Below the pieces are notes generated by a model. The model did no database searches and was not told the origin of the DNA. It was given only the letters and a program-made list of their open reading frames with translations. The translations under genes and the position numbers were made by a program. Positions 4,904-50,455 of a stretch of DNA of 64,000 nucleotides are shown here, one piece after another (within the stretch, counting starts at the first letter, position 1; each line of letters starts with the position of its first letter). Origin of the DNA: Aphrocallistes beatrix (lineage: Eukaryota; Porifera; Hexactinellida; Sceptrulophora; Aphrocallistidae); contig OY725499.1 of assembly GCA_963281255.1 (NCBI GenBank), forward strand, positions 1,682,096 to 1,746,095, read 5' to 3'.

Positions 4904-5264
4904 AACAATTTTTAAAATTTTGATGCGTAATGATGACGTCATAACAGAGTGACGAGTCATCTTTTTTTTTGGTTGTATCATATGTGAGATATATTAATAT
5001 AAACATTCTATTAAAATTTCAGCCTTCTATCACTTAAAACGGCTGATTTATGGTCGAAAAACTGAAATTTCTAATTATAAAAAAGGTGACAATGACGTAA
5101 TAATTCCATGATGAGTGGACATTTTCGTCTGAGCTCAGAACTTACTGGAGCCATAGCCAAAGGACCCTCACATGCCAAAAATCAGCTTTCTGTGCATGGC
5201 AGTTTCTTCAATCAATTCGTTACATACACAAACAAACATTAATCGAGTTTTAATAGTAAAGATA
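4904..5264 (-). mobile_element. 3'-truncated Helitron copy H1
   Basis: It carries the family interior: a CRE octamer TGACGTCA, the CATATGTGAGATATATTAATAT block, TCAATCAATTCGTTAC, then the 5' end in reverse (ATTAATCGAGTTTTAATAG). The GC-rich 3' hairpin is missing. Confidence 0.75.
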
Positions 5265-5266
5265 TA

Positions 5267-5743
5267 CACTGCCTGAATAAAAGTATTCGTACACCCCTTA
5301 ATTCCCCATACAAATAGTTATAATACTGATTTTTTAGCCTTTCAAGAATATTTAATTTGTGAGAGATACAATTAATTTGACTTCAAATTCGAATTCTCCA
5401 CATTCAAATTACCCACTTTATAAGTTTTCACCTTAATTACTCTTCTTCAAGATTTAGTATTTTCAGCATTTGCTTTCCTATGCCACATGTCACGAGTGAT
5501 CACCATTGTATATGATGGCATTGGTGGTATGAGGTGGCACAGTTTGAAAATTTTTAACCTTGTGGGAATCTAAACAAGTTGAAAGATTAAAAAGTGAGTA
5601 ATTCGAATATGGAGAATTCTAATTTGAAATTAAATTAAGCGTATCTCTTACCAATTAAATACCTTGACACGCTAAATAAATCAGTATTATAACTATTTGT
5701 ATGGGGAATTATGGGGTGTGCGAATACTTTTGTTCAGGTAGTG
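5267..5743. mobile_element. 477-bp palindromic TA-flanked MITE
   Basis: TIRs start CACTGCCTGAATAAAAGTAT and, at the far end in reverse, CACTACCTGAACAAAAGTAT. TA lies on both sides (5265-5266, 5744-5745), so it was probably moved by a Tc1/mariner transposase. The whole interior is a long inverted repeat (arms share ATAGTTATAATACTGATTT and TTCTCCA blocks) and could form a hairpin. A related end may lie near 6783-6812. Non-coding. Confidence 0.85.
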
Positions 5744-5775
5744 TATATACACATTAATCGAGTTATAATTATATA

Positions 5776-6299
5776 CAAGCGCGCTTCGATTGCTTGCGCT
5801 GCGCGGCTGGCGGACACTTTGTGTCCGCCGGAGGCTCCCTTCGGTCACCTGGGGTCATATTGGTTAATTATAGGGGAGATACCACCTCTGAATAAATCTG
5901 TCCTACTGTTATAATCGATATCGCACGAAAAATCACCAAATTTGACAATTTTTAAAATTTTGATGCATACAAATGTGGAGTATATTAATATACACATTCT
6001 TTTAAAATTTCATCCTTCTATCGCGTAAAATGACTGAGTTATGGTCAAAAAACTGAAATTTCTAACTCTAAAAAAGGTGACAATGACGTCATAATTTCAT
6101 GATGAGTCGACATTTTGTTCTGAGCTCAGAAATTACTGGAGCCATAGCTAAAAGACTCCCACATGCCAAAAATCAGCTTTCTTGGCTTGACAGTTTCTTC
6201 AATCAATTCGTTACAGATATATAGATATATACGTACTAGTATATATACTATACACATATACTATACACATAAACATTAATCGAGTTTTAATAGTATGGA
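5776..6299 (-). mobile_element. Helitron copy H2, near full length
   Basis: On the plus strand it opens with CAAGCGCGCTTCG and the GC-rich hairpin, continues with paired GGACACTTTGTGTCC, the TGACGTCA block at about 6087 and TCAATCAATTCGTTACAG, and closes with CGAGTTTTAATAGTATGGA. Read on the minus strand it runs TCCATACTATTAAAA to CTTG. Flanks are A at the 5' end and T at the 3' end. Non-autonomous: no Rep/helicase coding. Confidence 0.85.
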
Positions 6300-7978
6300 G
6301 AGATATATATATATAGTATATATAATTCATAATAGATACTGATAATTGAATTGTGATTATTTACGCATGGAAACACCCTCTAATCGCAAATCTTAAAAAT
6401 AGAATGCCCTAATTCACAAATTCGGACTCTTCAATAAGTGACGTAATTATGTAACAATTCATTCACACCACGATAGCTACTGAAAATTTGACTGCCAATT
6501 TGAAATTTAGAAGTTTTATATAATCAATTATGCGTAAATATAATTCTTATCGCTTGTGCCACCTTTTCCCACTTCTATTCATAATATGGTAATAAATGGT
6601 AATGAATAACTAGCAAATGACACAAGATGATACAGGTACTAGTAATTGCTTTTGAATGGATTAATCTATGAGAATCTTCTAAACTGAGTCACTCGAGTGT
6701 GCATTAGCTGTCGTGCTTTGAATGAATTGGCATCACTGGATAGACCCACTTTAGTATTATTTATGATGCAATGCAATATGGTGTTCGAATATTTTTGGCC
6801 AGGTAGTGCATTTATAATTCGAAAGCTGATTCCCAGAGCTATACAATGGATAAATAAAGATTATTCTGTTTCCACTACCTTCTGAATACAGGTCAGTATT
6901 ATGAAATGACCAAAGTACAATAATAATACAATAGCTTCGTGCTCAATTGGTGAAATCGAACAGTATGTGTGCCCCAAACCACTCATGACAAAGTTGGACT
7001 CTTGTCAATTACTCAACTTTCAAAGAAGATATCTGCTTAATTGTGTGGCTAACAGAAAAAAGAACAAAACGGATACTATTTTCCTTCTTCATTAAATAGT
7101 CTTAAATATTTTTAAAAAAATTTGAAATTCGTGGAATAAGATCATTAAAATGTTCAATAATTAAGAACCAGTGTAAAAAGTGAACGGGAGGTGTCCAATA
7201 GAATAGCTCGTGAGGAAAAATATCAGTTTTAGTTTTAGTGGATTTTTACCAAATGTTCAACTTAATTAAAAAGTGGACAGAAGTGAAGCGAATCACTTCA
7301 AAACTCAGTATTCCCCCAGCCTATAACTAGAATACTTCAGAGAATTCAATCTATAATTTTATATGATCATAAAATTCGATGGAAGGATCAGTTTTAATCT
7401 AACTTTGTCATAACTGAAATATATCAATGGAAACCACAAAATCACGTTCAAAGGCAGTACCCTAAACGATGTACATTTATTCGAGTGCAGGAACCACAAT
7501 AATTGTCCTATCAGACAAATTGGGAGCTGATTCCTTAAGGAATACAATCAACAAATCGAAAATATCCTATTTTCATACCTTTTGAAACACAGATATGGGA
7601 TGAGAACTTTTTTAATGTCCTAAGTAAGTTTGTCTAGATTGTATACTAGACGTTGCTCATTGATTGTACACCATGCATTACATATTTCATGAAATTGACG
7701 CAAATTTATTTTAGGTAAACATGTCAGGCCTAGCCCCGGGTTTTTCTCCCCCCCTGTCGGGTTAAAATACAAAGAATACAAGGAATAACATGTCCCCCAA
7801 TGCTTCGTTGTGATATAAACCTTGTTTGCTAAAGTAATTGAATAACTTGCAGCACGTGGCGTCGGAAGCCTGTGAAAATTGTCTATAGTTGATAAAATAG
7901 TGGTTTTTTGAAATTTTTGCAAATTTGAGCTCTACACCATAATTAACCTCAATGTATTTAATTTGAAAATATTTATTA
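6300..7978. other. Unassigned AT-rich DNA
   Basis: No convincing gene. A short inverted pair around 6350-6540 (TTTACGCATG-type ends) and a possible decayed MITE end near 6783-6812 are visible. Open frames of about 60-100 codons here lack domain signatures and splice context. Confidence 0.4.
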
Positions 7979-8163
7979 CAAGCGCGCTTCGCTTGCTTTC
8001 GCTGCGCGGCTGGCGGGGACACAGTGTCCGCCAAAGGCGCCCTTTGGGCGCCTAGGCTCACACTGAATAATTATAAGGTAGATAATATTACTAAATACGT
8101 CTGTCTAACGGGTATAGTCAATATCACTCGAAAAATCACAAAATTTGTCAATTTTGAAATTTA
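7979..8163 (-). mobile_element. Helitron 3'-end fragment H3
   Basis: CAAGCGCGCTTCGCTTG, the GC-rich hairpin, GGACACAGTGTCCGCC and the AAATACGTCTGTCTAACG block match the first ~185 bp (minus-strand 3' end) of the family, then the match ends. It lies about 300 bp upstream of the first visible kinase exon and may have displaced or separated earlier exons. Confidence 0.8.
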
Positions 8164-9757: not shown

Positions 9758-9759
9758 TA

Positions 9760-10929: not shown

Positions 10930-11075
10930 TCCTTACTATTAAAACTCGATTAATGTATATATATATATATGCAACGAATTGATTGAAGAAACTGCCAGCC
11001 GCAGGAAGCTGATTTTTGGCATGTGGGAGTCTTTTGGCTATGGCTCCACTAAGTTCTGAGTTCAGACCTGCAAAT
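10930..11075 (+). mobile_element. Helitron 5'-end fragment H4
   Basis: Begins TCCTTACTATTAAAACTCG preceded by A, then ACGAATTGATTGAAGAAACTG and GGCATGTGGGAGTCTTTTG. The match ends after AAGTTCTGAGTTCAGAC. This is the clearest plus-strand view of the family 5' terminus. Confidence 0.85.
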
Positions 11076-11129
11076 TGTCTCCCTATGTGACGAATTTGAC
11101 CCCCAAAACCAGATTCATTTTCCTTCTAC

Positions 11130-19887: not shown

Positions 19888-20075
19888 CAGTCGACTCCGC
19901 TTAATAGGGCCACATCGGTCAGAGGACATTTTGCCCCGATTAAGCGGAGGACCCTATTAACCGAAAATATTTTGTATTAGCTTCTATGTGTGAGAGCTAT
20001 TCCGGTCCTGCCAAAAGTGGCCCGATCAAGCGGCTGACCCGATTAAACAGTGGCCCTATTAAGCGGAGTCGACTG
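19888..20075. mobile_element. 188-bp TA-flanked MITE (CAGTCGACTCCGC)
   Basis: TIRs start CAGTCGACTCCGCTTAATAG, perfect at both ends, with TA at 19886-19887 and 20076-20077. The interior repeats CCGATTAAGCGG-type units. A second copy of identical length lies at 39556-39743. The CAGTCGA start suggests a pogo/Tigger-like mobiliser. Confidence 0.9.
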
Positions 20076-21228: not shown

Positions 21229-21921
21229 TCTTATATATTAAAATGCTAGGATTTTTTGTTTGTTTGTTTGTTTGTTTGTTTGTTTGTCCGAATTGATTGA
21301 AGAATTGGCAAGTCGTAGAGATACGAAAATTGGTATGTAGGTGTCAAATGATGAATCTAGGAATAAGTTCGAAAATCTAAGCGAAATTTTCACACCTCTG
21401 CAAAAAGAAATTTTCACACCTTTTCTATACTAAATAAATGACTACACTATCACATTAGAAACCATTGTATGACACTACAATAGATCGTCATTGTTATAAT
21501 ATTTCAAAACCACAACTTATGTTTGATATCTTAAATGTATTATACTATTTAGCAATAAAAAAGATTATCTGCATATTTTCACACCTTTATATACATATTT
21601 TCACATCATTTGATGAATTTTGAAAATAATGCTAGAGATTAGCTTCCAACGGGTGACATGGGGTTTTTAGGGGTGTAGATGACATATTTTCGAGTAAATT
21701 TGATGATCAATTTGTTTACTTTTGTTTTCAATAGATACATAAAGTAAACAAATTACAAACATTCTGAACTCTACAAATGTCAACTCATCATGGAATTGTG
21801 ACGTCATTGGCCATTTTTTAGAATTAGATATTTCAGTATTTCGACTAGAATTCATTTAGGTGATTGAAGCCTGAAATTTTAATGGAATGTGTATATTAAT
21901 ATATCTCAAATATGATGTAAC

Positions 21922-22034
21922 TATCATCAAAAATGATGACTCATCACTCAGTTATGACGTCATTATTAGGCAGACACGGTGTCTGCCTAATAATGACGTC
22001 ATAACTGAGTGATGAGTCATCATTTTTGATGATA
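21922..22034. repeat. 113-bp perfect palindrome
   Basis: Two exact 56-bp arms around a single G (21978). Each arm holds a CRE octamer TGACGTCA and an AP-1 heptamer TGAGTCA. The arms match Helitron interior sequence, so part of the Helitron was duplicated in reverse. Confidence 0.95.
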
Positions 22035-22736: not shown

Positions 22737-24127
22737 CAGTTTGTTTCAAAAGTATTGGCACTAAATGCATAGCTAAATATTTGAATAAGTTTGAATAGTA
22801 GGAATAAATAATCTACTAGTAATGGTTTCAATATCGATAGGTTTTGTTTTTTACAAAGCTCAGTAATTTATTTTCTTCCCTTTTGAAATTATACACTTTT
22901 TCAATCGCTTCGGCATTGAGAGAATGAAATTTTCAAGGAAATCGGGGGTAAAAGTCTCCCACTCATTTGATATTGCGATTTCTAATTCAGCTAAGTTAGA
23001 GTAATTGGATTTGGCCAGCCGTTGCTTAAGGACTCCCCAAACGTTGTCGATAGGGTTTAGATCCGGAGAATAGCTTGGCCAGGGCAGCACTTCTATATTT
23101 CTCTCCTCCTTCCAAAACTTACTCAACTTCGAGGTGTGAATCGGCGAGTTGTCTTCTTGCAATATCCAACCTTCTGGATAAAACAAGTCAGCCATTTCAA
23201 GTAAACACTCTCTTAAAGTGTATATATACAATGAAGAATTGAACGTATTTTTGAATATCTTAAGCAGAGTTGCTCCTCTTCTCGAGATAGCACCCCAAAT
23301 ATGGAGCTTAGGAACATGTCGTGGAATGTTCAAAAGTGGAGCTTCAGGTCCCCTTGTCCACATACGAACGCTGTCCCTCTCTAACCAAACCGAGCATTCA
23401 TCGCTGAAGAAAATCTTATTCCAGTCTTGTCTCTTATTGTTTTTACACCATTCTACTCTGTTTTTTGATGTCTTATCCGTAATAAATGGACCTTTTATTG
23501 ATTTTCTGTACCTGAAACCAGAAGAATGAATTGCCCTGAAGACGGTTGAAGTAGAAAGTGTATCGGGATATTTTATCCGCAAATTTTTATGAACATCACG
23601 GACGGACATCTTAGGAGAATGTTTTAACGTCTTAATCAGTGATAATTTCAATGGTATTTTCATTACTTTTGGACGACCAGGGACTTTTTTATGTTCTACT
23701 GATTTCCCTTCTCTGATGAGCCGTTTTACTCGATAGACCGTCCTTTTGGCAATGCCTGTTCTGTCACATATTTCCTTAACAGAATCAATTCCGGCTTCAA
23801 AGAGCGTTTTTATCTGTTTCCTTGCTTCTAACTGAGTCATCTATAAAGCTGAATACTTAATTATAAGGATAAATTGGAACAAATCATTAAATATATGATT
23901 AAGTTCAACTAAAAATTTAAGCTATTAGAAAAATGCTAGTCATTAATAGACAACTATTTTTTTTACGAAAAGCAAAAGTGAAGTTAGGAAATACTACTTA
24001 AATATTCATTCTAGAACTACGATATAATATAGAAAGACGAAAACATTGTTGGGATAAAATCAAAATGCTCGAGATATGGGTAGAATAAAAAGATAATGGA
24101 TGGTGCCAATACTTTTGAAACAAACTG
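22737..24127 (-). mobile_element. Whole-looking Tc1/mariner-type transposon
   Basis: 1391 bp. The TIR is 25 bp and perfect at both ends (begins CAGTTTGTTTCAAAAGTATT), with TA at 22735-22736 and 24128-24129. It contains one uninterrupted transposase reading frame. The left TA directly follows the CTTG terminus of Helitron H6, so it inserted at the Helitron boundary. Perfect TIRs and an open frame imply a young insertion. Confidence 0.95.
22860..23840 (-). CDS. Tc1/mariner-family transposase, DD34D
   Basis: 326 residues, a typical length. It acts on the flanking element: binds its TIRs, cuts, and inserts at TA. Residues 1-60 form the first helix-turn-helix (EICDRTGIAKRTVYRVKRL), followed by the GRPKV hook. 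A second HTH (MSVRDVHKNLR) spans about 75-115. Catalytic residues: first Asp in IFFSDECSVW, second in LQEDNSPIH, third in SPDLNPIDNVW, with 34 residues between the last two. The third acidic residue is Asp where most Tc1 proteins have Glu, so it is DD34D on a Tc1-like scaffold. The initiator ATG at 23840 precedes the HTH directly and no frameshift or stop interrupts it. The host probably transcribes it from within the element. A basic C terminus (KRLKKCIISKGKK) may help nuclear import. Confidence 0.95.
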   Translation of the reverse strand: MTQLEARKQIKTLFEAGIDSVKEICDRTGIAKRTVYRVKRLIREGKSVEHKKVPGRPKVMKIPLKLSLIKTLKHSPKMSVRDVHKNLRIKYPDTLSTSTVFRAIHSSGFRYRKSIKGPFITDKTSKNRVEWCKNNKRQDWNKIFFSDECSVWLERDSVRMWTRGPEAPLLNIPRHVPKLHIWGAISRRGATLLKIFKNTFNSSLYIYTLRECLLEMADLFYPEGWILQEDNSPIHTSKLSKFWKEERNIEVLPWPSYSPDLNPIDNVWGVLKQRLAKSNYSNLAELEIAISNEWETFTPDFLENFILSMPKRLKKCIISKGKKINY

Positions 24128-24129: not shown

Positions 24130-26280
24130 TATATATATGGATAGAATTATGCAGATCTTTGAAACTTAATGAAAATTTAAGGTCCTACTTACTTTTTTTG
24201 GGGTATAGTTTTGAAATTTAGATGCCATTTTAGCTTCGACTTTGTACATAGGTATTGAATTACCCTAGACTATTCTGAAGTGCGAAAATGTGCGAACATT
24301 CCAAATGTTGAGGAAATACTTTTTAACAATGTATTAGTGTTGCTGTCCAAGGACCCCCTTTTACTTATTTGACTTCCAGTTTCCGGGAGAAATAGCATGT
24401 AATTTTTTGATGTATGATAACTTTATGATCAATTATTTTATTTGTCGTCCGTTACTTTAGTCGATAATCAAGAACTCAGAAAGTTAATACTTTTAGAGTA
24501 AACAAGGGTCAACTGATGTATTCATTTCGTATGCGAATAGAGGCATTATTGGGCATAAATGAAACGAATTTTAACTTGCATATACTATATTCACAAATTT
24601 TGTCGATATTTCATGTAGTACATCTTTTCAATTTACTACAAGCATCTAGTCAGAACATATATTATCTGTAGTAGGCGATTTCATTAATTTGCGTACAAAC
24701 TTGCGTAGCTAACTCCAGGGGCCCCGCCTCCCGGGTTCGACGCCTATGGCTAACTCAACAATGCTTCGATCAATTGCCTATTTGTTTTCTCAGTTGTTTT
24801 TTAATATATTCTTAACGCTACCGTGTGGTGCCTTTGTATTAGGTATGATGGGAATTTTTTTTGTGCTCAACTATCATAAACTGTAGTCTATTTATCCACT
24901 CTAGTTTATCAAAACAGTAAAATAAATGTTTAACATCAGTAATATGACTATTAGAATTTGAGGATTTTTTTAAAATTCAATTTTTAGTCGCAATAGGATA
25001 TAATACTTCAACTTTCCTTAGATTTAAACATTTATTTTCATAGAATACATCATCCCCTATAAGATATCTCTTCATTGACATATATACTTAATTTCTACCG
25101 AACGTTTTTCGTTAAAAAGTCCAACTTTTGCATTGCCACCTAATTTTACTGAATTTAGTCCGAATTTAGCCGAATTTTCGACTCTTTTTATACATATTCA
25201 ACTAAACTTTGTGGATGGGAATCAATTTGAAAATCTGTACGGTAATATTTAAAGTATTACGTATATAGGTTCTATTCTAGTAACACCAAGTTTATAGAAG
25301 GAACAAATCCTGAGAACGAAATCATCAAGTTTGGGAGGATTGTCATTTTACCTATAAGCGAATATCGCATATCCACAAGTCATTATTTATCCATGGTTCA
25401 AAACAACATAAAATGTATATATTAACTATATAAATTCATTATAATCAATTTTGGAATAAATTTCAAAATATTATTAATTATATATCAATGGTAAATCCAC
25501 CATGTTATAAGCTCTGAAAAAAAATTAATTTTCATGCAATTGTTCAGCCCAAAATAGGCAGATTTGTTAAAATTATATATGTCTGTATTTGTCCAAAACT
25601 TCTCAAACTTTTACATCCTGATCCATGGTCCAATTATAAACGAAAAAGGAAGTATAAACTACCTTCCAGTGCGAATATTATTATCCATGGTTTAGTTAAG
25701 AAACATTTGAGTTTTCTTACCTCATAGACGAAAAGTTGACTCATCGCGAAATGGTGACGTCATTGTCACCTTGTGTATAATTTGAAATTTCAATTTTCGC
25801 ACATAACTTCCATTTTGGAGATTGATTCCTCAAAATTTAAATTCCATTCATCGAATATGATAATTCATCACTCCAGCTAGCAAAATTATTAGCAGATTCC
25901 TCTTAGTATGAAGTAACTCGCAGAGTTGATCTGTTAATGATGATCAATTCGTGGTTAATTCATTTTAAGGAATCTAGATGCTTATAACCTCAGGTATTTA
26001 TCTAGACTAGTACATATTTCACACGATTTGTGTTAGATACAAGAGGAACTAAAATATGTTAGTGGCTATCATGTGCAAGGAGCTAAATTATATAAATACG
26101 CATGCTTTGTGTGTGATTAGCATAACGCCTATTTTTTTTTTATTGTTTAAATTTTATCACTGTATCAATCTTCAATTTATTTTATTTAGTAATTGTTCAA
26201 TTTATTATATTTAGTATTTGTTAATATATATGCTATATGTAAAATAAATTATGTGTTTATGTTTATCACCGCCATCCGGA
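24130..26280. other. Long unassigned AT-rich region
   Basis: No gene was recognised. It contains one Helitron fragment (about 25729-25870) and a GC-rich patch with a lone perfect B-box match (24734-24744). Confidence 0.4.
25729..25870 (+). mobile_element. Helitron interior fragment
   Basis: GTTGACTCATCGCG, TGGTGACGTCATTGTCACC and a TTTTCGCACATAACTTCCATTTTGG block parallel the plus-strand interior of H11 (40820-40920). Both ends are missing. Confidence 0.65.
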
Positions 26281-28294: not shown

Positions 28295-30450
28295 ACTCTC
28301 CTTCACCCGCTCTCCTTCACTCGCTCTCCTTCACCCGCTCTCCTTCACCCGCTCTCCTTCACCCGCTCTCCTTCATCCGCTCTCCTTCATCCGCTCTCCT
28401 TCATCCGCTCTCCTTCACCCGCTCTCCTTCACCCGCTCTCCTTCACCCGCTCTCCTTCATCCGCTCTCCTTCACTCGCTCTCCTTCACCCGCTCTCCTTC
28501 ACCCGCTCTCCTTCACCCGCTCTCCTTCATCCGCTCTCCTTCACCCGCTCTCCTTCACTCGCTCTCCTTCACCCGCTCTCCTTCACCCGCTCTCCTTCAC
28601 CCGCTCTCCTTCATCCGCTCACCTTCACCCGCTCTCCTTCACTCGCTCTCCTTCACTCGCTCTCCTTCATCCGCTCACCTTCACCCGCTCACCTTCACCC
28701 GCTCTCCTTCACTCGCTCTCCTTCACCCGCTCTCCTTCACTCGCTCTCCTTCACCCGCTCTCCTTCACCCGCTCTCCTTCACCCGCTCTCCTTCACCCGC
28801 TCTCCTTCATCCGCTCTCCTTCACTCGCTCTCCTTCACCCGCTCTCCTTCATCCGCTCTCCTTCACCCGCTCTCCTTCACTCGCTCTCCTTCACCCGCTC
28901 TCCTTCACCCGCTCTCCTTCATCCGCTCTCCTTCACTCGCTCTCCTTAACCCGCTCTCCTTCATCCACTCTCCTTCACCCGCTCTCCTTCATCCGCTCTC
29001 CTTCATCCGCTCACCTTCACCCGCTCTCCTTCACTCGCTCTCCTTCACTCGCTCTCCTTCATCCGCTCACCTTCACCCGCTCACCTTCACCCGCTCTCCT
29101 TCACTCGCTCTCCTTCACCCGCTCTCCTTCACTCGCTCTCCTTCACCCGCTCTCCTTCACCCGCTCTCCTTCATCCGCTCTCCTTCATCCGCTCTCCTTC
29201 ACTCGCTCTCCTTCACCCGCTCTCCTTCACCCGCTCTCCTTCACCCGCTCTCCTTCACCCGCTCTCCTTCACCCGCTCTCCTTCATCCGCTCTCCTTCAC
29301 TCGCTCTCCTTCATCCACTCTCCTTCACCCGCTCTCCTTCATCCGCTCTCCTTCACCCGCTCTCCTTCACTCGCTCTCCTTCACCCGCTCTCCTTCACTC
29401 GCTCTCCTTCACCCGCTCTCCTTCATCCACTCTCCTTCACCCGCTCTCCTTCACCCGCTCTCCTTCACTCGCTCTCCTTCACCCGCTCTCCTTCACTCGC
29501 TCTCCTTCACCCGCTCTCCTTCATCCGCTCTCCTTCACCCGCTCTCCTTCACTCGCTCTCCTTCACCCGCTCTCCTTCACTCGCTCTCCTTCACCCGCTC
29601 TCCTTCACTCGCTCTCCTTCACCCGCTCTCCTTCATCCACTCTCCTTCACCCGCTCTCCTTCACCCGCTCTCCTTCACCCGCTCTCCTTCACCCGCTCTC
29701 CTTCATCCGCTCTCCTTCACCCGCTCTCCTTCACCCGCTCTCCTTCACTCGCTCTCCTTCACCCGCTCTCCTTCACCCGCTCTCCTTCATCCGCTCTCCT
29801 TCACTCGCTCTCCTTCACCCGCTCTCCTTCACCCGCTCTCCTTCACCCGCTCTCCTTCATCCGCTCTCCTTCACCCGCTCTCCTTCACTCGCTCTCCTTC
29901 ACCCGCTCTCCTTCAACCGCTCTCCTTCACCCGCTCTCCTTCATCCGCTCTCCTTCACTCGCTCTCCTTAACCCGCTCTCCTTCATCCACTCTCCTTCAC
30001 CCGCTCTCCTTCACTCGCTCTCCTTCACCCGCTCTCCTTCACCCGCTCTCCTTCATCCGCTCTCCTTCACTCGCTCTCCTTAACCCGCTCTCCTTCATCC
30101 ACTCTCCTTCACCCGCTCTCCTTCATCCGCTCTCCTTCATCCGCTCACCTTCACCCGCTCTCCTTCACTCGCTCTCCTTCACCCGCTCTCCTTCACTCGC
30201 TCTCCTTCATCCGCTCACCTTCACCCGCTCACCTTCACCCGCTCTCCTTCACTCGCTCTCCTTCGCCCGCTCTCCTTCACTCGCTCTCCTTCACCCGCTC
30301 TCCTTCACCCGCTCTCCTTCATCCGCTCTCCTTCATCCGCTCTCCTTCACTCGCTCTCCTTCACCCGCTCTCCTTCATCCACTCTCCTTCACCCGCTCTC
30401 CTTCACCCGCTCTCCTTCACCCGCTCTCCTTCACCCGCGCTCCTTAACCC
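28295..30450. repeat. 14-bp minisatellite, about 154 units
   Basis: Unit CTCTCCTTCACCCG, with recurrent variants at the last bases (CACTCG, CATCCG, CATCCA) and rare CTCACCTTCACCCG or CCTTAACCCG. Because 14 is not a multiple of 3 and no unit junction makes a stop, plus-strand frames stay open for up to 722 codons, reading SFTRSPSPALLHPL-like repeats. These are artefacts of the repeat, not a gene. Blocks of the same variant order recur (for example the TCGCTCTCCTTAACCCG group at about 28940, 29960 and 30075), showing segmental duplication within the array. Confidence 0.95.
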
Positions 30451-30454
30451 GCTC

Positions 30455-30839
30455 TTCACTCCTCCATATCCCCCCCCTGCTACTCTATATTTTGACAATT
30501 AAATTTCAATAAACTAGTCTTGCAAATCGAATCCTATTTCTATTATTCAGGAATTTTAATAGTTTGAAATCATTCTCACATTTTCTCAAAGATTGGGTGG
30601 ATCAAATTGTGATCACTAGTATCAATTGCTACGCCAATTTTTAAATAATTTGCTTTTAAACCTTTATTTCAAAGTGTATTGTTTTCATTAGTTTAAGACA
30701 GAAATCAATCAGTAAAAATTGATGAAGAAAGTGATAAATTTGTAATAATCTTGACACCTCATATCCCTATATATTTGTGAAAATTGATGCTAAATCATTT
30801 ATACTATACAAAAAAATGCGTATAGAGTTTTAACTTCTA
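30455..30839. other. Unassigned DNA
   Basis: Nothing recognised between the minisatellite and the next Helitron. Confidence 0.35.
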
Positions 30840-31789
30840 CAAGCGCGCTGTCAGACACTGTGTCCGCCGCATTCTCCCTTCGGACGCCTGGAGGTGACAT
30901 TGGTCAATTTTAAGGGAGATATTATCTCTAAATATGTCCATCTTAGTTTTAAAATCAATATCACTCAAAAAACACCAAATTTGACAATTTTAAAGTTTTG
31001 ATGAGCAATGATGACGTCATAACAAAGTGATGAGTCATCATTTTTTAATAATTCCATCATATGTGCGGTATGTTAGTATACATATTCTATTAAAACTTCA
31101 GCCTTCTATCTCCTATAATGGCTGAGTTATGCTCGAATAACTGTATTGCTTAACTTTTAAAAATGTGACAATGACGTCATAATTCCATGATGAGTAAACA
31201 TTTTGCTCTGAGCTCAGAACTTACTGGAGCCATAGCCAAAAGACTCCCACATGCCAAAAATTAGCTTTCTATGACCGGCAGTTTCTTCAATCAATTCGTT
31301 ACAGATATATCTATATACAGTCGAACCTGCTATAACGGCCACTCTATATAACGGTCATCTGTCTATAGCGGTTATCAATGAACAGTCCTGTCCGAAATTC
31401 CATAATATTGAACCTGTGTATAGCGGTCACCTGCTCAACGCGGCCAGCGTCCACCCGTTTGTTGTCCCTTACTGACCCTTAAACTGTGTATAACGGCTAT
31501 CACCTGTCTATAACGGCCACCACCTGTCTATAACGGCCATCACCTTTTTCACCTTTTTATGTGTTTATTACAGGACATGTTACGAACGATAAACAAGTTT
31601 CATGTAATTACTTCAAATAATGGAACTACATGTAGTAACTATGTTTTATTCTAGATAGGGTTAAGACAATCACCTGTATATAACGGTCACCTGTGTATAA
31701 CGGCCAATTTTGTCCAGTCCCTTGGGTGGCCGTTATATACAGGTTCCACTGTATATCTATAGACATTAATCGAGTTTTAATAGTAAGGA
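30840..31789 (-). mobile_element. Helitron H8 carrying a 434-bp MITE
   Basis: Opens CAAGCGCGC and closes CGAGTTTTAATAGTAAGGA, so the minus strand runs TCCTTACTATTAAAA to CTTG. Two CRE octamers (about 31014 and 31173) and one TGAGTCA. Part of the 3' hairpin is deleted. The MITE at 31318-31751 sits near the 5' end. Twelve bp of (TA)n separate it from H9. Confidence 0.9.
31318..31751. mobile_element. 434-bp TA-flanked MITE, inverse copy
   Basis: Starts CAGTCGAACCTGCTATAACG and ends with the inverse of CAGTGGAACCTGTATATAAC. TA at 31316-31317 and 31752-31753. Same family as 20323-20754 in opposite orientation, with the same internal CCTGTCTATAACGGCCA subrepeats. Confidence 0.9.
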
Positions 31790-31801: not shown

Positions 31802-32968
31802 CAAGCGCGCTTCGCTTGCTTGCGCTGCGCCGCTGGAGGACACTTTGTTTCCACCGGAGACTCCCTTCGGTCGCCTGGGGTCACACTGGTTAATTATAAG
31901 GGAGATAACATCTCTAAATGCGTCTGTCCTACTGTTCTGATCGATATCGCACGAAAAATCACCGAAAATATCAATTTTTAAAATTTTGATGTGTAATGAT
32001 GACGTTATAAAAAAGTGATGAGTCATCATTTTTTGATGATTGTATCATATGTGAAGCATGTTAGTATTAGGGTTGCCAGATTTTCAAGAGGCTAAACCCG
32101 GACACAATTTATTCTCTAAAAAATTAACCATATGTACTACCTGTTACTGCATCTTCTAAGTGAAACTGAGTGTTGGATGAAAAATGATTATTGTAATGTT
32201 ATCTAATTTTAAATTTGTATCAATAACTTATCGTCAAAATACAGAATACATAAATAATCAAGATAAATTATAAATTATATTTCGTCTATTAGTTATTGCG
32301 GTTAAACTAAAATCTCAGAGAATAAAATTTGAAATAACAATTTGAATGTAGGTAATTCACTGTAAACCAGAGCTGCAGACAAATAAAATGACCCTTGACC
32401 CACGTGATTACATATCTATATATCATAATTCATCGTTGAAGCCATTGAACACAGAAACAAAAAGAAGATTCCAAGTATACTAATTACGAAATATGTTAGG
32501 CAGTTAGGGTCAGTACTCAGTAGTATACGTACACTATGGTAGCATTACAAATCAGTAATAATCGAAATTTCACAAACTTGCACTCTTTCTTCAAATATTA
32601 GAGAGTGACACGTTTGCAGCAGAGCAATAGCTAACTAAATAACTTAGATACGGATATAATATAATGAGAGTCCTGAGTAGTGAGTAGTCGGACAGGACTC
32701 AAAATTCTCCAAACCCGGACAAATTCATCCCATTCCCGGACTCCGGACAAATGGCTCGAAACCCGGACTGTTCCCGGACAAACCCGCACGTCTGGCAACC
32801 CTAGTTAGTATACATATTCTATTAAAATTTCAGCCTTCTAGCTCCTATAATGACTGAGTTATGCTCGAATAACTGTATTGCTTAACTTTTGAAAATGTGA
32901 CAATGGCGTCATAATTCCATGATGAGTCGACATTTTGCCGCGCAGCGCAAGCAAGCGAAGCGTGCTTG
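31802..32968. mobile_element. Helitron H9 with a 3' hairpin at both ends
   Basis: The left end is the minus-oriented 3' terminus (CAAGCGCGCTTCGCTTG). The interior runs in the minus direction to GATGAGTCGACATTTTG (32937) and then joins abruptly to a plus-oriented 3' terminus (CGCAGCGCAAGCAAGCGAAG, CTTG at 32965-32968, T after). A hAT MITE (32068-32803) interrupts it. The expected 5' terminus is absent. Confidence 0.8.
32068..32803. mobile_element. 736-bp hAT-type element, perfect TSD
   Basis: TIR TAGGGTTGCCAG perfect at both ends. TSD GTTAGTAT exact (32060-32067, 32804-32811). The right half repeats CCCGGAC and CGGACAAA motifs. No open frame, so non-autonomous. Confidence 0.95.
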
Positions 32969-35956: not shown

Positions 35957-37139
35957 CAAGCGCGCTTCGCTTGCTTGCACTGCATGGCTGGCAGACACTT
36001 TGTGTCCGCAGGAGGAGCATGGGGTCAATTTGATTAATTATAAGGGATATGACATCTCTAAATACGTCTGTCCTACTGTTATAATCAATATCGCACGAAA
36101 AATAACCAAATTTGTCAGTTTTTCAATTTTTGATGCGTAATGATGACGTCATAACAAAGTGATGAGTCATCATTTTTTGATGACAGTGGCATCATGTGTG
36201 AGATATATTAATATACATATTCTTATAAAATTTCAGCCTTCTATCACTTAAAATGGCTGAGTTATGGTCGAAAAACTGAAATTTCTAATTATAAAAAAGG
36301 TGACAATGACGTCATAATTCCATGATGAGTCGACATTTTCGTCTGAGCTCAGAACTTAGTGGATCCATAGCCAAAAGACCCCCACATGTCAAAAATTTCT
36401 ATGACCTGCAGTTTCTTCAATCAATTCGTTGAAGATATATATGGGTCATTCCATGTGAAATCGACCAAATCGACCAATTGTTCCATGTTGAGCATCTCAG
36501 AAATTCTTGTAATTTTGCCTGTAAGTTTTGCATACTAGTGCATGATCATTTGTACAATATCAGTTTTCAATACCTTTTGGTTTTATAATTATAGCCATTT
36601 CAAAATTTGACGATTTTTATAGTTCGGACACTCTTGTTTTAGAGGCCCCTTAATCAAATGTGACATATATCTTTCAATTCTTAACTTAGATGTCCAGTTT
36701 TTTACTGGTTGTTAATCATATAGTTACCTAATGTTCTTAGCTAAATTGGGTATTCTTATTGCCTAGTTTAGATTTAATTCTTATCTAAACATATATTTTC
36801 ATCAATTTATCAAAAAAATTTCAAAATAATAATTCTTCATGTCTCCAATGGTTTAAAATTTGTCCATTTACTTTTTAATTTTGCTCTATATATGTACAAT
36901 CTTCCTGGTAAATTTCATGGCTTACATCAGTTATTTTACTGTTAAATTCCAACCTATTTTAAATCATTCCAAATTTTATTTGTTATCAAATTTTTCAATT
37001 TTCCTAATGCCTACGAATGAAGAATTCTGAAATATTTGATATTTGTTTCTATTTCTTAGTCCTACAGTTATATAGATATACTTTCTCCAGTTGTGCGAAT
37101 TGTAGTTGAAATTTGTGTGTGTTTTTATCACTTGTACTA

Positions 37140-38490
37140 CAGTCTGTTACATAATTATTCGGAATTATATTTGACAAAATTTTCTTACAAGATTATTCAT
37201 GGTCAACATTCTAAGTTAAGAGATATTATCTACATTGCTAAAATTCAATATTATATAGAAAACACCATTGAGTTGTTAACCATTTGACATCTGGGCGCCA
37301 TTGATGACCAGTATGGCTTAAGAAAATTAGAATCTAGCCTCCTCCAGGTGGCCTCCAACATGTTCTTTAGCTCTGGAATTGTCAACCTTTTAACTTTTTT
37401 GGTTGGCTAATTCCTGCTTTAGCCAACCAAAGAGGTTCACAATAAGATTGAGATCAGAGTTTTTGAAGGCCACGGTAGTACTTTGGACACTATTGAACTC
37501 AGCAAATGCTTGACCTTTATAGCGGTATTTTTAGGATCGTTATATTTTACGAGTTTCCAGTAATTTTCAGGGAAACGTTAGCCTGGGCAAGTAGATGACC
37601 TTGAAGGATGTCTAGAAATAAGATACTATACATATTTGATTGAAAATACAAAGAGGGAAGTCTCCAATGAAGAAAATGCCGGCTTTACGTTAATCTTTGG
37701 CGTATGTTTAGTCGTAGGGACACACCTTTCTCGATCTAATTTTGTCCACATTTTAATTTGATCCCTGGAGAGCTATACCGACATCTCATCAGCAAAAACT
37801 GTCTTAGCCCATTATATCTTGGAGTATTTGAATTTCTTCACCCATTATATACGATACAAACGATTGTTATCGCTAAGCATTGGCCTCTTTGTCGGGTCTC
37901 TCTTAGAATAACTCAGATCTATCAAGCCCCGGCATACTGTCCAGCAATATACTGTAATGGGACCTCTACTGGCTAATGTTCTTAACGACAAATACGGTTT
38001 CTGCCTTATCTGTTGGCTAATCGAGTGTTTAATTCCATTCCATAGAGAACTTGGCCTTCCAACATCTTTTTGATGTGAGATATCGATCCCTTTCGCAATT
38101 CTTGACCTAAAATAATAAATTGTAGACAAGCTTACATCTACAATTTGAGAAATTTCTATTGGTGCATGCTAATTGGGTTCCAGCAATGTTTTAATAGTAT
38201 CTCTCTTCAGAAGTTGGGTCAATTCAAAGTGTATTAAGATAAATAAATTGTAGAATATAGATGAGAAAAGCTAAATTAATACAGTAATACCGGGAATGAC
38301 GTCACTATATTCTCATATAGAGCAATAAAATTTTTGTGGGATGACAGAGTTCCTAGTTCAATCTTAATTTTGTAAATACTTGGTTATACAGTACTAAAAA
38401 AACAATATGTTGGAGTATAAGAGATCAAAATTTCCTAATATGGTCAAATCTATTGCAAACTAGAATTCCAAACAATTATGTAACAGACTG
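37140..38490 (-). mobile_element. Decayed Tc1-like transposon
   Basis: TIRs begin CAGTCTGTTACATAATT, with TA at 37138-37139 and 38491-38492. 1351 bp. The minus strand holds a worn transposase: GRPSSLWNGIKHSI hook/HTH region (37845-38129), a TVFADEMSV catalytic block and a LPWPSKTL remnant. A terminal fragment of the same family lies at 43507-43804. Confidence 0.85.
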
Positions 38491-39555: not shown

Positions 39556-39743
39556 CAGTCGACTCCGCTTAATAGGGCCACAACGGTCAGAGAATATTTT
39601 GCCCCGATTAAGCAGAGAACTCTATTAACCGAAAATATTTTGTATTAGCTTCTATGTGTAAGAGCTATTCCGGTCCTGCCAAAAGTGGCCCAATTAAGCG
39701 GTTGACCCGATTAAACAGTGGCCCTATTAAGCGGAGTCGACTG
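39556..39743. mobile_element. 188-bp TA-flanked MITE, second copy
   Basis: CAGTCGACTCCGCTTAATAG at both ends, TA at 39554-39555 and 39744-39745. Same length as 19888-20075 and only a few substitutions apart. Confidence 0.95.
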
Positions 39744-40712
39744 TACTTAATTACGAGTATATGCAAAGTTGTGCCGATGAAATTTGATCCCGAATTAGAA
39801 CCACATTTGACAAGTTTTGGATGGTAACGAAACGTTGCCATGCTATGTGTCTAAGCAGAACAATATTTTAATTATTTTGTCAATATTGATAACTAAAGAA
39901 ATTAAGAAGATAATCGTTTTACAATATTAGGAAAAAAGAAGATTATTAGTACTTGTACAAATACTTCTAATATATAGTACAAGTGATAAAAACACACACA
40001 AATTTCAACTACAATTCGCACAACTGGAGAAAGTATATCTATATAACTGTAGGACTAAGTAATAGAAACAAATATCAAATATTTCAGAGTTCTTCATTCG
40101 TAGGCATTAGGAAAATTTGAAAAATTTGATAACAATTAAAATTTGGAATTATTTAAAATAGGTTGGAATTTAACAGTAAAGAACTGATGTAAGCCATGAA
40201 TTTTACCAGGAAGATTGTACATATATAGAGCAAAATTAAAAAGTAAATGGACAAATTTTAAACCATTGGAGGCATGAAGAATTATTATTTTGAAATTCTT
40301 TTGATAAATTGATGAAAATATATGTTTAGATAAGAATTAAATCTAAACTAGGCAATAAGAATACCCAATTTAGCTAAGATCATTAGGTAACTATATGATT
40401 AACAACCAGTAAAAAACTGGACATCTAAGTTAAGAATTGAAAGATATATGTCACATTTGATTAAGGGGCCTCTAAAACAAGAGTGTCCGAACTATAAAAA
40501 TCGTCAAATTTTGAAATGGCTATAATTATAAAACCAAAAGGTATTGAAAACTGATATTGTACAAATGATCATGCACTAGTATGCAAAACTTACAGGCAAA
40601 ATTACAAGAATTTCTGAGATGCTCGACATGGAACAGTTGGTCTAATTGGAATGAAATGACCCATATACGTACTATATGTATATACACATTAATCGAGTTT
40701 TAATAGTAAGGA

Positions 40713-41219
40713 TATATATATATATGTAACGAATTGATTGAAGAAACTGTCATGCCCAGATAGTTGATTTTTGGCATGTGGGAGTCTTTTGCCTATGGCT
40801 CCGGTAAGTTCTGAACTCAGACAAAAATGTCGACTCATCATGGAATTATGACGTCATTGTCACCTTTTTATATAATTAGAAATTTCAGTTTTTCGACTAT
40901 AACTCAGCCATTTTGGGTGATAGAAGGCTGAAATTTAAATTGAATGTGTACGTATATTAATATACCTCACATATGATACAACTATCTTCAAAAAATGATT
41001 ACTCATTACTCTGTTATGACATCACCATTACGCTTCAAAAATTTTAAAATGACAAATTTGGTGATTTTTCGTGCGATATCGATTATAACAGTAGGATAGA
41101 CGTATTTAGAGATCTTATTTCCCTTATAATTAATAAATAGACCTCAGGTACCCTTAGGGCGCTACCGGCGGGAAACAGTGTCCGCCAGCCGCGGAGCGCA
41201 CGCAAGCGAAGCGCGCTTC
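40713..41219 (+). mobile_element. Helitron H11, head-to-head with H10
   Basis: After (TA)n it runs TGTAACGAATTGATTGAAG, GTGGGAGTCTTTTGCC, TGACGTCATTGTCACC and GCAAGCGAAGCGCGCTTC; the last base is C instead of the family G. The usual TC start is replaced by the adjoining end of H10. A reversed 5' terminus (ATTAATTGAGTTTTAATAG, to 41257) follows directly, so H11 seems to sit inside another copy's 5' end. Confidence 0.75.
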
Positions 41220-43059: not shown

Positions 43060-43500
43060 AAGCACGCTTCGCTTGCTTGCGCTGCGCGGCTGGCGGACAC
43101 TTTATATCCGCCGGACGCTCTCTTCGGTCGCCTGGAGTCACATTGATTAATTATAACGGAAATAACATCCCTAAATACCTCTGTCCTACTGCTATAATCG
43201 ATATCGCACGGAAAATCACTAAATTTGGCGATTTTAAAAATTTTGATGCGTAATGATGAAGTCATAACATAGTGATGAGTTACCATTTTTTGATAATAGT
43301 TGTATCATATGTGATGTATATTAATATACATATTCTATTAGAATTTCAGCCTTCTATCACCTAAAATGGCAGAGTTATAGTCGAAAAACTGAAATTTCTA
43401 ATTATAAAAAAGGTGACAATGACGTCATAATTCCATGATGAGTCGACATTTTCATCTGAGCTCAGAACTTGGTGGAGCCATAGCCAAAAGACCCCCGCAT
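43060..43500 (-). mobile_element. Helitron H12, 5' truncated
   Basis: Starts TAAGCACGCTTCGCTTG (two changes in the terminal CAAGCGCGC) and runs collinearly to CATAGCCAAAAGACCCCCGC, one CRE octamer at about 43425. The 5' end was replaced by a Tc1 end fragment. Confidence 0.85.
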
Positions 43501-43506
43501 TCAAAA

Positions 43507-43804: not shown

Positions 43805-43825
43805 TATATACTGCCTGGTCAAAGG

Positions 43826-44902: not shown

Positions 44903-44934
44903 GGCATATATATATATGTGTGTAACGAATTGAT

Positions 44935-46192: not shown

Positions 46193-47471
46193 ATAGTCTA
46201 CTGTATATAAGGCCTGCCATCTACTTAGAAAATCTGGATTAGGGATGCACTAGTGGACAATTATTATAATGAACCACAACTTTTAATGATGATTTTATCA
46301 CTAGCTTAATCAATGAGAATACATTATGCGAAGTTGTTTCCCCATATTCTCTGTCACAAATATTTAACCTAGCCTCCATAATCCTTCTCAGCAGCAGATC
46401 ACTTTCCATTTTAAGATGCAAGAACTCAGAGAGAGACATTTGACCGACGTTTCGGTTCCCGTTCTCCATCCAAAGGATCCTGTTGAAGGGGATACATACA
46501 AAACCAAAAGTGGGGACTGGAGCTAAACCATATTGCCTTTCATGGTATCCTCTTAATTGCTCATCAATATCTAAAATAAACGGATTCCGTTCTCCGGAGT
46601 CAAAGGAAGAATATTGCTTAACAAAGGAGACTCCTAGCTTGAAATATGAGATTGAGGAGAAAGAGAAGTACCTTGTCAGGATTTTGCAAGATCTTCACAC
46701 AGGGTCCTAAGGAGATTCCCACAAGAATTCTATGGGGATGGGATAGAATGGGAATTTCATTCCCACGGCAACCCTGGTATAAATGCATTTGTATCAATAC
46801 AGCAAAGACCCTGGAGCAAAAATAGTTGCATCACAGTTCAGGGTTGGGGTCAATTACAATTATAATTGTGTAATTAGTAATTAATTACAATTACACTAAT
46901 TGGAGTGTAGTTGTAATTGAAAGTTTTTCTTGCCTTGAAATTGATTCGTAATTATAATTGAACAAATGTAATTGACCCTATTGTTATCCGACTTTTGAAA
47001 TTATTAATCATTTAATTCAATTTTGTAGATATTATTACTTGTTGACCTCTTTTCTAGAAACAGACCCTTGGAACATCATTTTGGACTTTTCGTGTGATGT
47101 CTGTTTCGAGCTATCAAATCTCATATTTTGAAATATTGAAACGGACGTATTCATATTTTCTATTCACACAATGTGTACAGAGCGAGCGGGTAGGAGAAAG
47201 AAAGAAAGCAGAAAAGTATTGTGAAGACCTTTTTTATTTGCATTTTAACCTTTCTATTATGTAATATGATACATGTTGTTCTTAGTAATTCATTAAATAT
47301 GTTCAAAATAAAATATTAACTCTATTAGAGTAGGGAATAATGGAAAACAGACTATGGCTTAGTTATTTAATGGCCTAATTGGTTAATATACACATTCTAG
47401 GAATTTTAATTTCCCGTCCTCTACCGCATCCCTGGTACATTATATGGTAGGCCTTATATAGAGTAGGCTAT
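46193..47471. mobile_element. P-type element C6, arms diverged
   Basis: Left end ATAGTCTACTGTATATAAGG, right end GAGTAGGCTAT. GTTGAGC flanks both sides (46185-46191 and 47473-47479). About 1.28 kb. The interior is unlike other family C copies: it holds an ACGTTTCGGTTCCCGTTC stretch and a palindromic TCAATTACAATTATAATT patch (46853-46980). Two ~75-codon frames (46239-46469 minus, 46483-46710 plus) have no domain signature. Confidence 0.65.
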
Positions 47472-47472
47472 G

Positions 47473-48560
47473 GTTGAGCTTAAAATTTCGCTACTAGAGG
47501 CATTAGTTCGCGATACCTTCTAATATTTTTGTTTGTTACCTCTATTGCTTCTTCAGATAAGTATTTTAGTCCATGACTATTGTTACAAGTTCTAATGAGT
47601 TTTAAAGAATGTTTTTATGCATAGTTGGAGTGATGTTTGCCCTAAGGAACATAATTACAATGTATTCGTATGTGTCCTTGCAAAGATATCCACTTTTTCA
47701 GTTTTTATCTTTCGGTCGATGTTGCAAATACACAAAAGTACTGAATAGATAGTGTGGATTACCTATAAATTATCATTGCATTCTGTTGGTGTTAAAGACC
47801 AAACCCAGGGAATAAATTGGTTTATGTCAAGGAAATTATTTCTAGCAATATTACCAGTTGATGTAGGGCTATTATCACTCCTGGGTTGATCAATCTCGAT
47901 AAACCTGAAACGAACTTCATTGAGTTATTTATGACTGAGGATTATGGTGAACACTTACTTGCTCCTGATTGCAGGTGATAAACGAGGGACATAAACCATA
48001 TAAATATGTACGTATATGAATATTTTACAGATAAGCACTGATATAGATGTCGGAAATAGGTCGATGAGTCAATCCAAAACGATCATTGGAAGATAGAGAT
48101 GGAAATCTCTGTTCTTGCTGATATTGAACAATTAAAACAATGTCGTATAAGATTGACATCATGCAATTGTTAGGTAGCAGTACAAAGTTGGAAGCACCAC
48201 CGGCTCCAGATAGAATTCCTGACATTTGTGAGAATAAATTATAGATATATAGGTAAACATTGTGAATTCAACGATAATATGGAAATACAAATCTGAGGGC
48301 ATGAAAATTATACCTTATTTCCAGCAAAAAGCACACTTTACATGTCTCATCCATGTCTCGAAAATAAACACCAGATCTCCGCAAAATTTGAAACGCAAAC
48401 GTAAAACGTATCTCGACAGCCTTTCATCTAACCTTAGTAAATTCGCGCACCCTAAGTGTTTTTTTTTCTTTCTACACCAAAATTTCCCTGAAAAAATAAA
48501 TAGATAAAAAATTTTGCGATTTCAACTTGCGACATTCCTCTACGATCTCACTTTATTATT
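47473..48560. other. Unassigned DNA
   Basis: No supported gene. A 66-codon minus frame (48025-48225) begins MSGILSGAGGASNFVLLPNN and is compositionally plausible as an exon, but no splice signals convinced me. Confidence 0.35.
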
Positions 48561-48574
48561 AAATTTAAGTCTAT

Positions 48575-49417
48575 GAATAGGGACTCGTCAGCAACTATCT
48601 AAGTTTCAAACTGATAGCATCTCTGTTCGTGAGTCGAGAATCTCTTCTTCCAAAGAAGTACGGAATCTCGGAACTTGGCTCGACGACACCCTCTCAATGT
48701 CTACTCAGGTCAGCAAAGTTACCTCCTCCTGCTTCTACTATATCTATAACATCCGGCGTATTAGAAAGTATCTTTCTATGTAAGTCTGTGAAACTCTCGT
48801 TAATGCTCTCATCACATCTCGTCTTGATTATTGTAACAGTCTCTTGTATGGTTCCCCCTCATCCCTCTTAGCTCGACTACAGCGAGTCCAGAAAAGTGCA
48901 GGCAGACTTATCTACAATGTCTCTCGTACCTTCTCGTCTTCTCCTCTTCTTGTCAACCCCCACTGGCTGCCTGTTAAACATCGTATCCTCTTCAAAATTC
49001 TCCTCATAACTTACGAAGCCATTCATTCTCTTGCTCCGGATTAGATCATCCAACTCATACAAGCTAAGACATCCAATCGCATTCTACGATCATCCAACGC
49101 CATCCTTCTTGAGCATCCTACTATCAAATCCTCCAAAACCCTGGGTGATCGTGCTTTCACTTTAGCTGCGTCTGTTGAGTGGAATCTTCTCCCTCCGAGC
49201 ATTCGGAATGCCCCTTCACTCCCTATCTTCAAAAACGACTAAAAACTCACCTCTTCCGCATCGCACACCCCGCAACTACTTAAATAAACACTTAATATAC
49301 ATCTTAAATTCATTTCAACGCATATACTACATACATCTATTATTATTATACAGCGCACTTTAACATATTAATATGGAATCTGCGCTATATAAACGTATAT
49401 TATTATTATTATTATTA
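48575..49417 (+). mobile_element. L2/CR1-type LINE, 3' end
   Basis: 5'-truncated non-LTR retrotransposon. It encodes the C-terminal part of the reverse transcriptase [59 protein letters not shown] and [20 protein letters not shown], then LGDRAFTLAASVEWNLLPP, the hallmark order of L2/CR1-clade elements. Three in-frame stops (after KYLSM, HSLAPD and IFKND) make it inactive. The 3' end GCGCTATATAAACG plus an (ATT)n tail (49399-49417) is the microsatellite-type tail usual for L2. Helitron H13 inserted directly at the tail. Confidence 0.9.
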
Positions 49418-49924
49418 CAAGCGCGCTTCGCGGCTGGCGGACACAAAGTGTTCGCCGGAGGCGCCCTGCGAGTTCCTGGGTTCACATTGATTAATTATGA
49501 GGAGGATAACATCCCTAAATATGTCTGTCCTACTGTTATATTCGATATCGCACGAAAAATCACCAAATTTGTCAATTTTTAAAATTTAGATGAGTAATGA
49601 TGTCATAACAAAGTGATGAGTCATCATTTTTTGATGATAGTTGCATCATATGTGAGGTATGTTAGTCTACAGATTCGATTAAAATTTCAGCCTTCTATCT
49701 CTTATAATAGCTGATTTATGCTCTATCGAATTTTTAAAAATGTGACAATGACGTCATAATTCCATGATGAGTCGACATTTTGCTCTGAGCTCAGAACTTA
49801 CTGGAGCCATAACCAAAAGACTCCCACATGCCAAAAATTAGCTTTCTGTGCCTGGCAGTTTAGTCAATCAATTCGTTACCGATATATATATACACAAACA
49901 TTGATCGAGTTTTAATAGTAAGGA
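49418..49924 (-). mobile_element. Helitron H13, tandem with H14
   Basis: Opens CAAGCGCGCTTCG at the LINE tail and ends CGAGTTTTAATAGTAAGGA at 49924. Shortened terminal hairpin. One CRE octamer (about 49749), one TGAGTCA. The next base begins H14. Confidence 0.95.
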
Positions 49925-50455
49925 CAAGCGCGCTTCGCTTGCTTGCGCCGCGCGGCTCGTGGACACTTTGTGTCCGCCGGAGGCGCCCTTTGGGCGCCTG
50001 TGGTCACCATTGATTAATTATATGGGGGATAACATCTCTAAATACGTCTGTCCTACTGTGATAATCGATATCACTCGAAAAATCACAAATTTGTCAATTG
50101 TAAAATGTTGATGCGTAATGATGACGTCATAACAAAGTGATGAGTCATCATTTTTTGGTGATAGGTGCATCATATGTGAGGTATGTTAGTATACAGATTC
50201 GATTAAAATTTCAGCCTTCTATCTCTTATAATGGCTGATTTATGCTCGAATAACTCTGTTGCTTGACTTTTAAAAATGTGACAATGACGTCATAATTCCA
50301 TGATGAGTCGACATTTTGCTCTGAGCTCAGAACTCACTAGAACCATAGCCAAACGAATCCTACATGCTAAAAATCAGGTTTCTGCGCCCAGCAGTTTCTT
50401 CAATCAATTCGTTACAGATATATATATATATATAAATATTAATCGTATTATTAAT
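49925..50455 (-). mobile_element. Helitron H14
   Basis: CAAGCGCGCTTCGCTTG with full hairpin and GGACACTTTGTGTCCGCC. Two CRE octamers (about 50118 and 50286) and one TGAGTCA. The 5' end is worn (AAATATTAATCGTATTATTA). Confidence 0.9.

Follow-up and report, generated by a model that had tools for sequence, protein, structure and literature searches.

Why should a stretch of 64,000 nucleotides from the hexactinellid sponge Aphrocallistes beatrix (contig OY725499.1; hereafter the window) be so rich in one regulatory octamer? The octamer, TGACGTCA, is the CREB/ATF site, or cyclic-AMP-response element (CRE), and it occurs there together with TGAGTCA, the AP-1 site, or phorbol-ester-response element (TRE). 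An earlier interpretation of the window from its letters (the sequence-only reading) counted at least 16 octamers with fewer than one expected by chance, placed nearly all of them in copies of a Helitron, and proposed that this element disperses sites for basic leucine zipper (bZIP) factors or makes use of them itself. We find that the octamer belongs to a composite, duplicated module. An autonomous Helitron has this module in the leader of the gene for its transposase RepHel, a short derivative sharing the 5' end of that element carries it too, and it recurs at thousands of sites across the genome.

Exactly 16 octamers are found in the window, where shuffled sequences contain 0.38 on average and none of 100 shuffles reaches 16. 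The TGAGTCA count is much weaker evidence, with 14 sites against 7.2 expected and two shuffles of 100 getting to 14. Members of the Helitron family, as delimited by alignment to its consensus, occupy 5,366 bp of the window and hold 15 of the 16 octamers, the sole outsider lying at 38297, as well as 8 of the 14 TGAGTCA sites. Their identity to the consensus ranges from 78 to 97%, which fits the proposal that the copies differ in age.

The consensus, built from 29 genome copies, describes a non-autonomous Helitron of 545 bp. From its 5' end TCCTTACTATTAAAACTC it runs through a TA run, a conserved block GAATTGATTGAAGAA, module 1, module 2 and a hairpin to the 3' end CAAGCGAAGCGCGCTTG. Each module (consensus 160-184 and 321-347) is made of GACTCATCA, an 8-bp spacer and TGACGTCA, and the two modules align with one another. 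The consensus thus has two octamers (177-184 and 340-347), 163 bp apart, as expected from the observation that copies often carry a pair. A TGAGTCA had been described as usually nearby; the full TGACTCA is present in module 2 only.

Several features support the assignment of these repeats to Helitrons. The 5' end, which starts with TC, is preceded by A in all 20 distinct loci away from tandem junctions (from 30 loci we set aside one duplicate, L027, three at tandem junctions and six without a recognised 5' end), and in 29 of the 30 the base after the 3' end is T. Head-to-tail junctions are present, including one at 49924/49925 of the window. The 11-base 3' end AGCGCGCTTGT occurs 6,239 times genome-wide (100.5 Mb in 28 contigs, as for all such counts below), and its control three times. 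The family also shares its ends with RepHel-encoding elements: consensus 1-531 matches the leader of one autonomous lineage and consensus 427-545 the 3' end of a second. The 3' terminus does not show the strict CTRR motif of Helitron1 and reads CTTG, in the autonomous elements too; because of this end, we file the family as Helitron by its RepHel partners and not as strictly canonical by terminus. A strong hairpin, GGCGGACACAAAGTGTCCGCC (consensus 492-512), stops 33 nt short of the terminus, and the stem at the very 3' end folds no better than shuffled sequences. In the accessible parts of one description (PMC5148889), some 10-12 nt separate the Helitron1 hairpin from the 3' terminus, and Helitron2/Helentron elements insert between TTTT and T or C, or at T-T, and possess asymmetric terminal inverted repeats. 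The present family inserts between A and T, and by eye its two consensus ends look unalike.

Genome-wide, TGACGTCA occurs 14,962 times and the reversed word 1,217 times. The words AGTCGACT and TCAGCTGA number 4,604 and 3,070; the former is an inflated control, since it is raised by another, inverted-repeat element. The exact composite of GACTCATCA, eight bases and TGACGTCA is found 7,204 times and its control never, so that at least 48% of all genomic octamers lie in the composite. The predicted dispersal of bZIP-type modules by Helitrons is therefore borne out. On the other hand, the statement that nearly all octamers fall in Helitrons, which is correct for the window, does not extend to the genome: among the first 100 octamers listed on contig C1, a non-random sample from the start of one chromosome, the family accounts for 42 and not for the other 58. 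Thirty-seven of the 42 were assigned by proxy (a pair 140-190 bp apart, or an intact 3' end within 600 bp) and the other five by alignment of the remaining 63 sites, a procedure that might miss very old fragments among the 58. These 58 octamers fall in 55 loci, and 41 of the 55 central positions lie in a stop-free frame of at least 120 codons, which suggests that they are mostly in coding sequence. Octamers outside Helitrons (L051-L110) are also above expectation, at 40.5 per Mb compared with 14.5 per Mb from a first-order model of their own flanks.

Where do the modules sit in elements that encode their own transposase? The Helitron_like_N profile has 106 matches genome-wide, in open frames of up to 1,970 amino acids. 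The RepHel open reading frame (ORF) matches it with E=9.5e-60, followed by the first ~40 residues of PIF1, a match below the cut-off and cut by the end of the locus. We read two autonomous lineages, L034/L036 and L035, the latter represented by L196/L035 and L040. The L035 element starts with the short family's own 5' end, preceded by A, and contains both modules in exact form; its RepHel ATG lies 519 bp downstream of the first octamer and 356 bp downstream of the second, with no recognisable 3' terminus between modules and ORF. The second copy, L040, has the same leader layout. When the two leaders are compared, all 36 CRE/TRE columns are identical, against 451 of the 507 other aligned columns (p=0.04). 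A 742-base probe covering modules, leader and ORF start matched without a break across the module/ORF boundary at 14 places besides its source (83-96% identity, 40 candidates scored). Twelve of them, including that of L040, cover both CRE positions, and the other two (C15 and C3:4762931) cover CRE2 only. With a 901-base L040 probe starting shortly before CRE2 and reaching into the ORF, at least 898 bases were matched at 13 of 40 places, source included. These contiguous matches elsewhere make the leader position a property of the L035 lineage and rule out the chance insertion of a family copy upstream of L035.

The L034/L036 lineage begins with TCTTATATATTAAAACTC and has sub-terminal blocks related to those of the short family. 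Over the final 119 bp, two of its copies share 88-89% identity with consensus 427-545, and in one case its 3' end is directly followed by the 5' end of the next copy; each element was read in stretches on either side of some 2 kb of ORF. A reading based on this lineage, that autonomous elements have no modules, was overturned by the L035 lineage. The N-terminal region of L035 displays STPR repeats (PF21107) before the Rep domain, and L034 has a different repeat. Several autonomous copies (L031, L032, L033, L034, L036, L038, L039 and L042-L044) also contain TGACGTCA inside the Helitron_like_N coding region, at the same place (locus nucleotide 1689 or 1848), which is probably a coding coincidence.

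We then asked how the motif positions have evolved, in two sets of copies. In 40 copies spanning both modules, out of 80 sampled by their 3' end, departures from the majority base amounted to 0.026 in CRE columns and 0.070 elsewhere. Private changes stood at 0.018 and 0.016, and shared changes at 0.008 and 0.053. The second set pooled 90 copies: 7 from the window, 42 from similarity-search loci, 39 from the 3'-end sample and 2 others. There, private (singleton) substitutions were not significantly rarer at CREs (8/1416 against 300/35258, p=0.30; CRE and TRE together, p=0.08). A variant common to at least three copies was found in 5 of 35 CRE and TRE columns as compared with 161 of 401 elsewhere (p=0.0019), a deficit matched by random 8-mer sets in 1.5% of draws, and in 2 of 16 columns for CRE alone (p=0.03). 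On a tree drawn from the non-module columns (91 leaves, the duplicate L027 retained), CREs underwent 0.12 changes per site on internal and 1.19 on terminal branches, against 0.74 and 2.84 elsewhere; the contrast between branch classes gave p=0.03 for CRE and TRE together. Within the power of 90 copies, the motifs thus diverge as fast as their neighbours after insertion, an outcome named in advance as adverse to their retention, but not at the level of the lineage. Altogether, we read this pattern as purifying selection that would act mainly on the transposing lineage; at the level of single copies, any conservation signal appears weak at best.

The sequence-only reading had offered use by the element itself as an alternative to dispersal for the host. 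We now favour this alternative in view of the position of the modules in the autonomous RepHel leader. We propose, with slightly better than even confidence, that the modules are host-bZIP-responsive promoter elements of the transposase gene, spread by a deletion derivative that kept the promoter. They would bind CREB/ATF and Jun/Fos-type bZIP factors of the host and thereby switch on the transposase gene, making RepHel expression dependent on signals. The short element could have arisen by loss of the coding region, with the promoter and a 3' end retained, and its mobilisation in trans by RepHel would have spread thousands of copies of the promoter module. Each copy would afterwards decay at about the ordinary rate, and some may possibly regulate genes.

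CREB-like and Jun-like bZIPs are encoded by the host. A bZIP_1 profile search returned 15 matches, 12 of them over the cut-off. One protein has a CREB-type basic region, and its three solved-structure matches are all CREB, CREB1 structures being the best. For another, all six solved-structure matches are JunD and c-Jun/AP-1, with JunD first. Judged by eye from their sequences, others look ATF2-like and CREB3/ATF6-like. Several divergent bZIP domains (L206-L214) fall, by eye, outside the textbook classes, and could possibly represent a lineage-specific expansion. Among nematode proteins, ZIP-3, ATF-7, ZIP-11 and ATF-5 of Caenorhabditis elegans are bZIPs.

A number of points weigh against a role of the modules as RepHel promoter elements. 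The letters were read for two module-bearing leaders only. The 3' end of L035 itself was not found in a 2.7-kb stretch at and beyond the ORF end, and for this reason the 3' match of the short family is to the other lineage. The motif is present in autonomous elements and most derivatives of the module-bearing lineage, but the L034/L036 leader is different and lacks the modules, which are therefore not universally needed by autonomous Helitrons. The statistics are also modest for the CREs taken alone: 10 of 258 background window pairs in the first set were at least as conserved, 5% of random 8-mer pairs did as well for shared variants, 15% of non-module 8-mers were intact as often as CRE2, and the contrast between internal and terminal branches was not significant (p=0.28). 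Finally, constraint on promoter sites in a non-coding derivative is unexplained unless the families are repeatedly reseeded from autonomous elements.

The likeliest of the alternatives is that the modules are cis-sequences for transposition, either sites or single-strand hairpins for RepHel or a host replication protein, and that their likeness to CRE and TRE is incidental. In its favour, the constraint is seen in a non-coding derivative for which transcription is unnecessary, and the other conserved blocks, 5' sub-terminal and at the 3' end, are plausibly transposition signals. Moreover, the single-strand fold of module 2 beats all 200 shuffles (z -3.9). However, for module 1 the fold has no clear advantage over shuffled sequences (z -0.6), and the L034/L036 lineage, whose 5' blocks and 3' end are related to those of the family, has a module-free leader. 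In the module-2 stem, 1,031 of 1,054 cells pair and none has changed on both sides, so that covariation neither supports nor excludes the pairing. We regard this explanation as rather improbable.

Host co-option appears unlikely to us. It would suppose that the dispersed CRE/AP-1 modules are kept by host selection and regulate genes near the copies. The thousands of exact modules would agree with it, as would the state of the octamers: octamer 1 is intact in 86 of the 89 copies covering it, where the remaining 8-mers in these copies predict 54.6, and octamer 2 in 71 of 87 (53.8 expected), the copies being non-independent in both cases. In the accessible parts of the report on C. elegans, Helitron heat-shock elements (HSEs) do act on neighbouring genes (PMC6927752). 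Yet private substitutions at the CREs are not significantly reduced, and the retention of octamers is partly lineage-level, because shared variants are rare there. The claim that retention speaks for host use is thus not upheld.

Simple hitchhiking is more doubtful still. A founder would by chance have carried two CRE-like octamers, one of them from a short internal duplication, and copy number would explain the excess. Copy number does account for most of it, and the mutual alignment of the modules agrees with a duplication. CpG is little depleted in the window (observed/expected 0.83), so octamers would persist unaided; as most other CpGs of the element persist too, their retention needs no CpG argument, and we dropped the idea of CpG protection. 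But shared variation is reduced in motif columns, the motifs are fully conserved between the two autonomous leaders, and their position upstream of the RepHel ORF is fixed in many copies. Sister families built on other palindromes can be dismissed, as the contexts examined for AGTCGACT pairs show nearly all of them to be terminal repeats of a different, inverted-repeat element.

The closest precedent is that of the HSEs in Caenorhabditis Helitrons. In the accessible parts of that study, Helitrons carry 61.4% of genomic HSEs, and HSF-1 promotes the expression of an autonomous C. elegans Helitron (Garrigues et al. 2019, PMC6927752). Both systems have a transcription-factor motif in autonomous and non-autonomous elements and a large share of its genomic occurrences (at least 48% of TGACGTCA here). 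For HSF-1, that study measured binding, induction and the consequences for neighbouring genes. The sponge motif is a duplicated composite of the bZIP sites CRE and TRE, for which substitutions were split into lineage-level and private ones. The four C. elegans bZIPs named above are among six factors with more than 10% of their motifs in transposons, and the accessible parts of that paper do not link these four to Helitrons or a transposase leader (Garrigues et al. 2022, PMC8896005). From what is accessible on Helraiser and bat Helitrons (PMC4778049), the 5' TC, insertion between A and T, head-to-tail junctions and non-autonomous derivatives are common features; CTTG-3' ends are reported for some insertions and for maize Helitrons, but unlike Helraiser, which ends in CTAG, the present family has CTTG as its regular end, and there is a CRE/TRE module in the leader. 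Among the listed titles and beginnings of abstracts from one open-access library, no description of CRE-bearing Helitrons or of CRE/TRE modules ahead of a Helitron gene came up.

If the modules drive RepHel, Helitron activity would be tied to a pathway that can be induced experimentally (cyclic AMP agonists, phorbol ester, stress), which would provide a testable case of signal-induced rolling-circle transposition and carry the Caenorhabditis heat-shock precedent over to bZIP factors. A bolder version, which we hold only tentatively and think rather unlikely, is that host cyclic AMP or stress signalling switches on the transposase via CREB/AP-1, that the promoter-only derivative seeded thousands of inducible bZIP modules, and that Helitrons thereby built part of the host's CREB/AP-1 response, which would vary from one individual to another. 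Separating private from shared substitutions is a cheap way to separate selection on an element from selection on its dispersed copies.

Table. Helitron family members and the isolated CRE octamer in the window (consensus coordinates abbreviated cons).
Feature	Position	Strand	Details
5' part of copy, cons 1-375	4906..5262	-	CRE 4934-4941 (module 2); module-1 octamer mutated
Copy, cons 37-545, without module 2	5776..6231	-	CRE 6084-6091
3' fragment, cons 362-545	7979..8162	-	neither octamer
5' end fragment, cons 1-159	10930..11079	+	begins TCCTTACTATTAAAA
Fragment, cons 153-357 (+), and inverted module 2 (21984-22034, -)	21775..22034		CREs 21799, 21955, 21994; TREs 21937, 22013
Diverged module-1 fragment, cons 137-194	25714..25772	+	78%; CRE 25755-25762; TRE 25737-25743
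Copy, cons 39-520	30843..31317	-	CREs 31012-31019, 31172-31179; TGAGTCA 31031-31037
3' part of copy, cons 277-545	31802..32067	-	TGAGTCA 32019-32025; CRE position mutated
Internal fragment, cons 150-284	32804..32938	-	no exact CRE
Copy, cons 44-545	35957..36442	-	CREs 36144-36151, 36307-36314; TGAGTCA 36163-36169
Only TGACGTCA outside the family	38297..38304
Copy, cons 40-544	40712..41218	+	CRE 40849-40856; second octamer mutated
Copy, cons 98-544	43060..43506	-	CRE 43420-43427; second octamer mutated
Copy, cons 1-525, arranged head to tail with the 49925..50439 copy	49423..49924	-	CRE 49749-49756; TGAGTCA 49617-49623; 3 bp lost from second octamer
Near-complete copy, cons 30-545, both modules	49925..50439	-	93.8% to consensus; CREs 50122-50129, 50285-50292; TGAGTCA 50141-50147

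Positions 21922-22034 form a 113-bp palindrome, 99% perfect, made up of module 2 and a hairpin and holding two CREs and two TREs. Rfam has no match in the window. A minisatellite of 14-bp units (CTCTCCTTCACCCG), with about 154 copies and a strong strand skew, extends over 28296-30455. On the minus strand, 22860-23840 is an open frame of 326 amino acids for a Tc1/mariner-type transposase (DDE_3, HTH_Tnp_Tc3_2). An inverted-repeat element with ends TACAGTCGACTCCGCTTAATAGGG is found at 19889-20074 and 39557-39742, and lies near Helitron ends in several other loci too.

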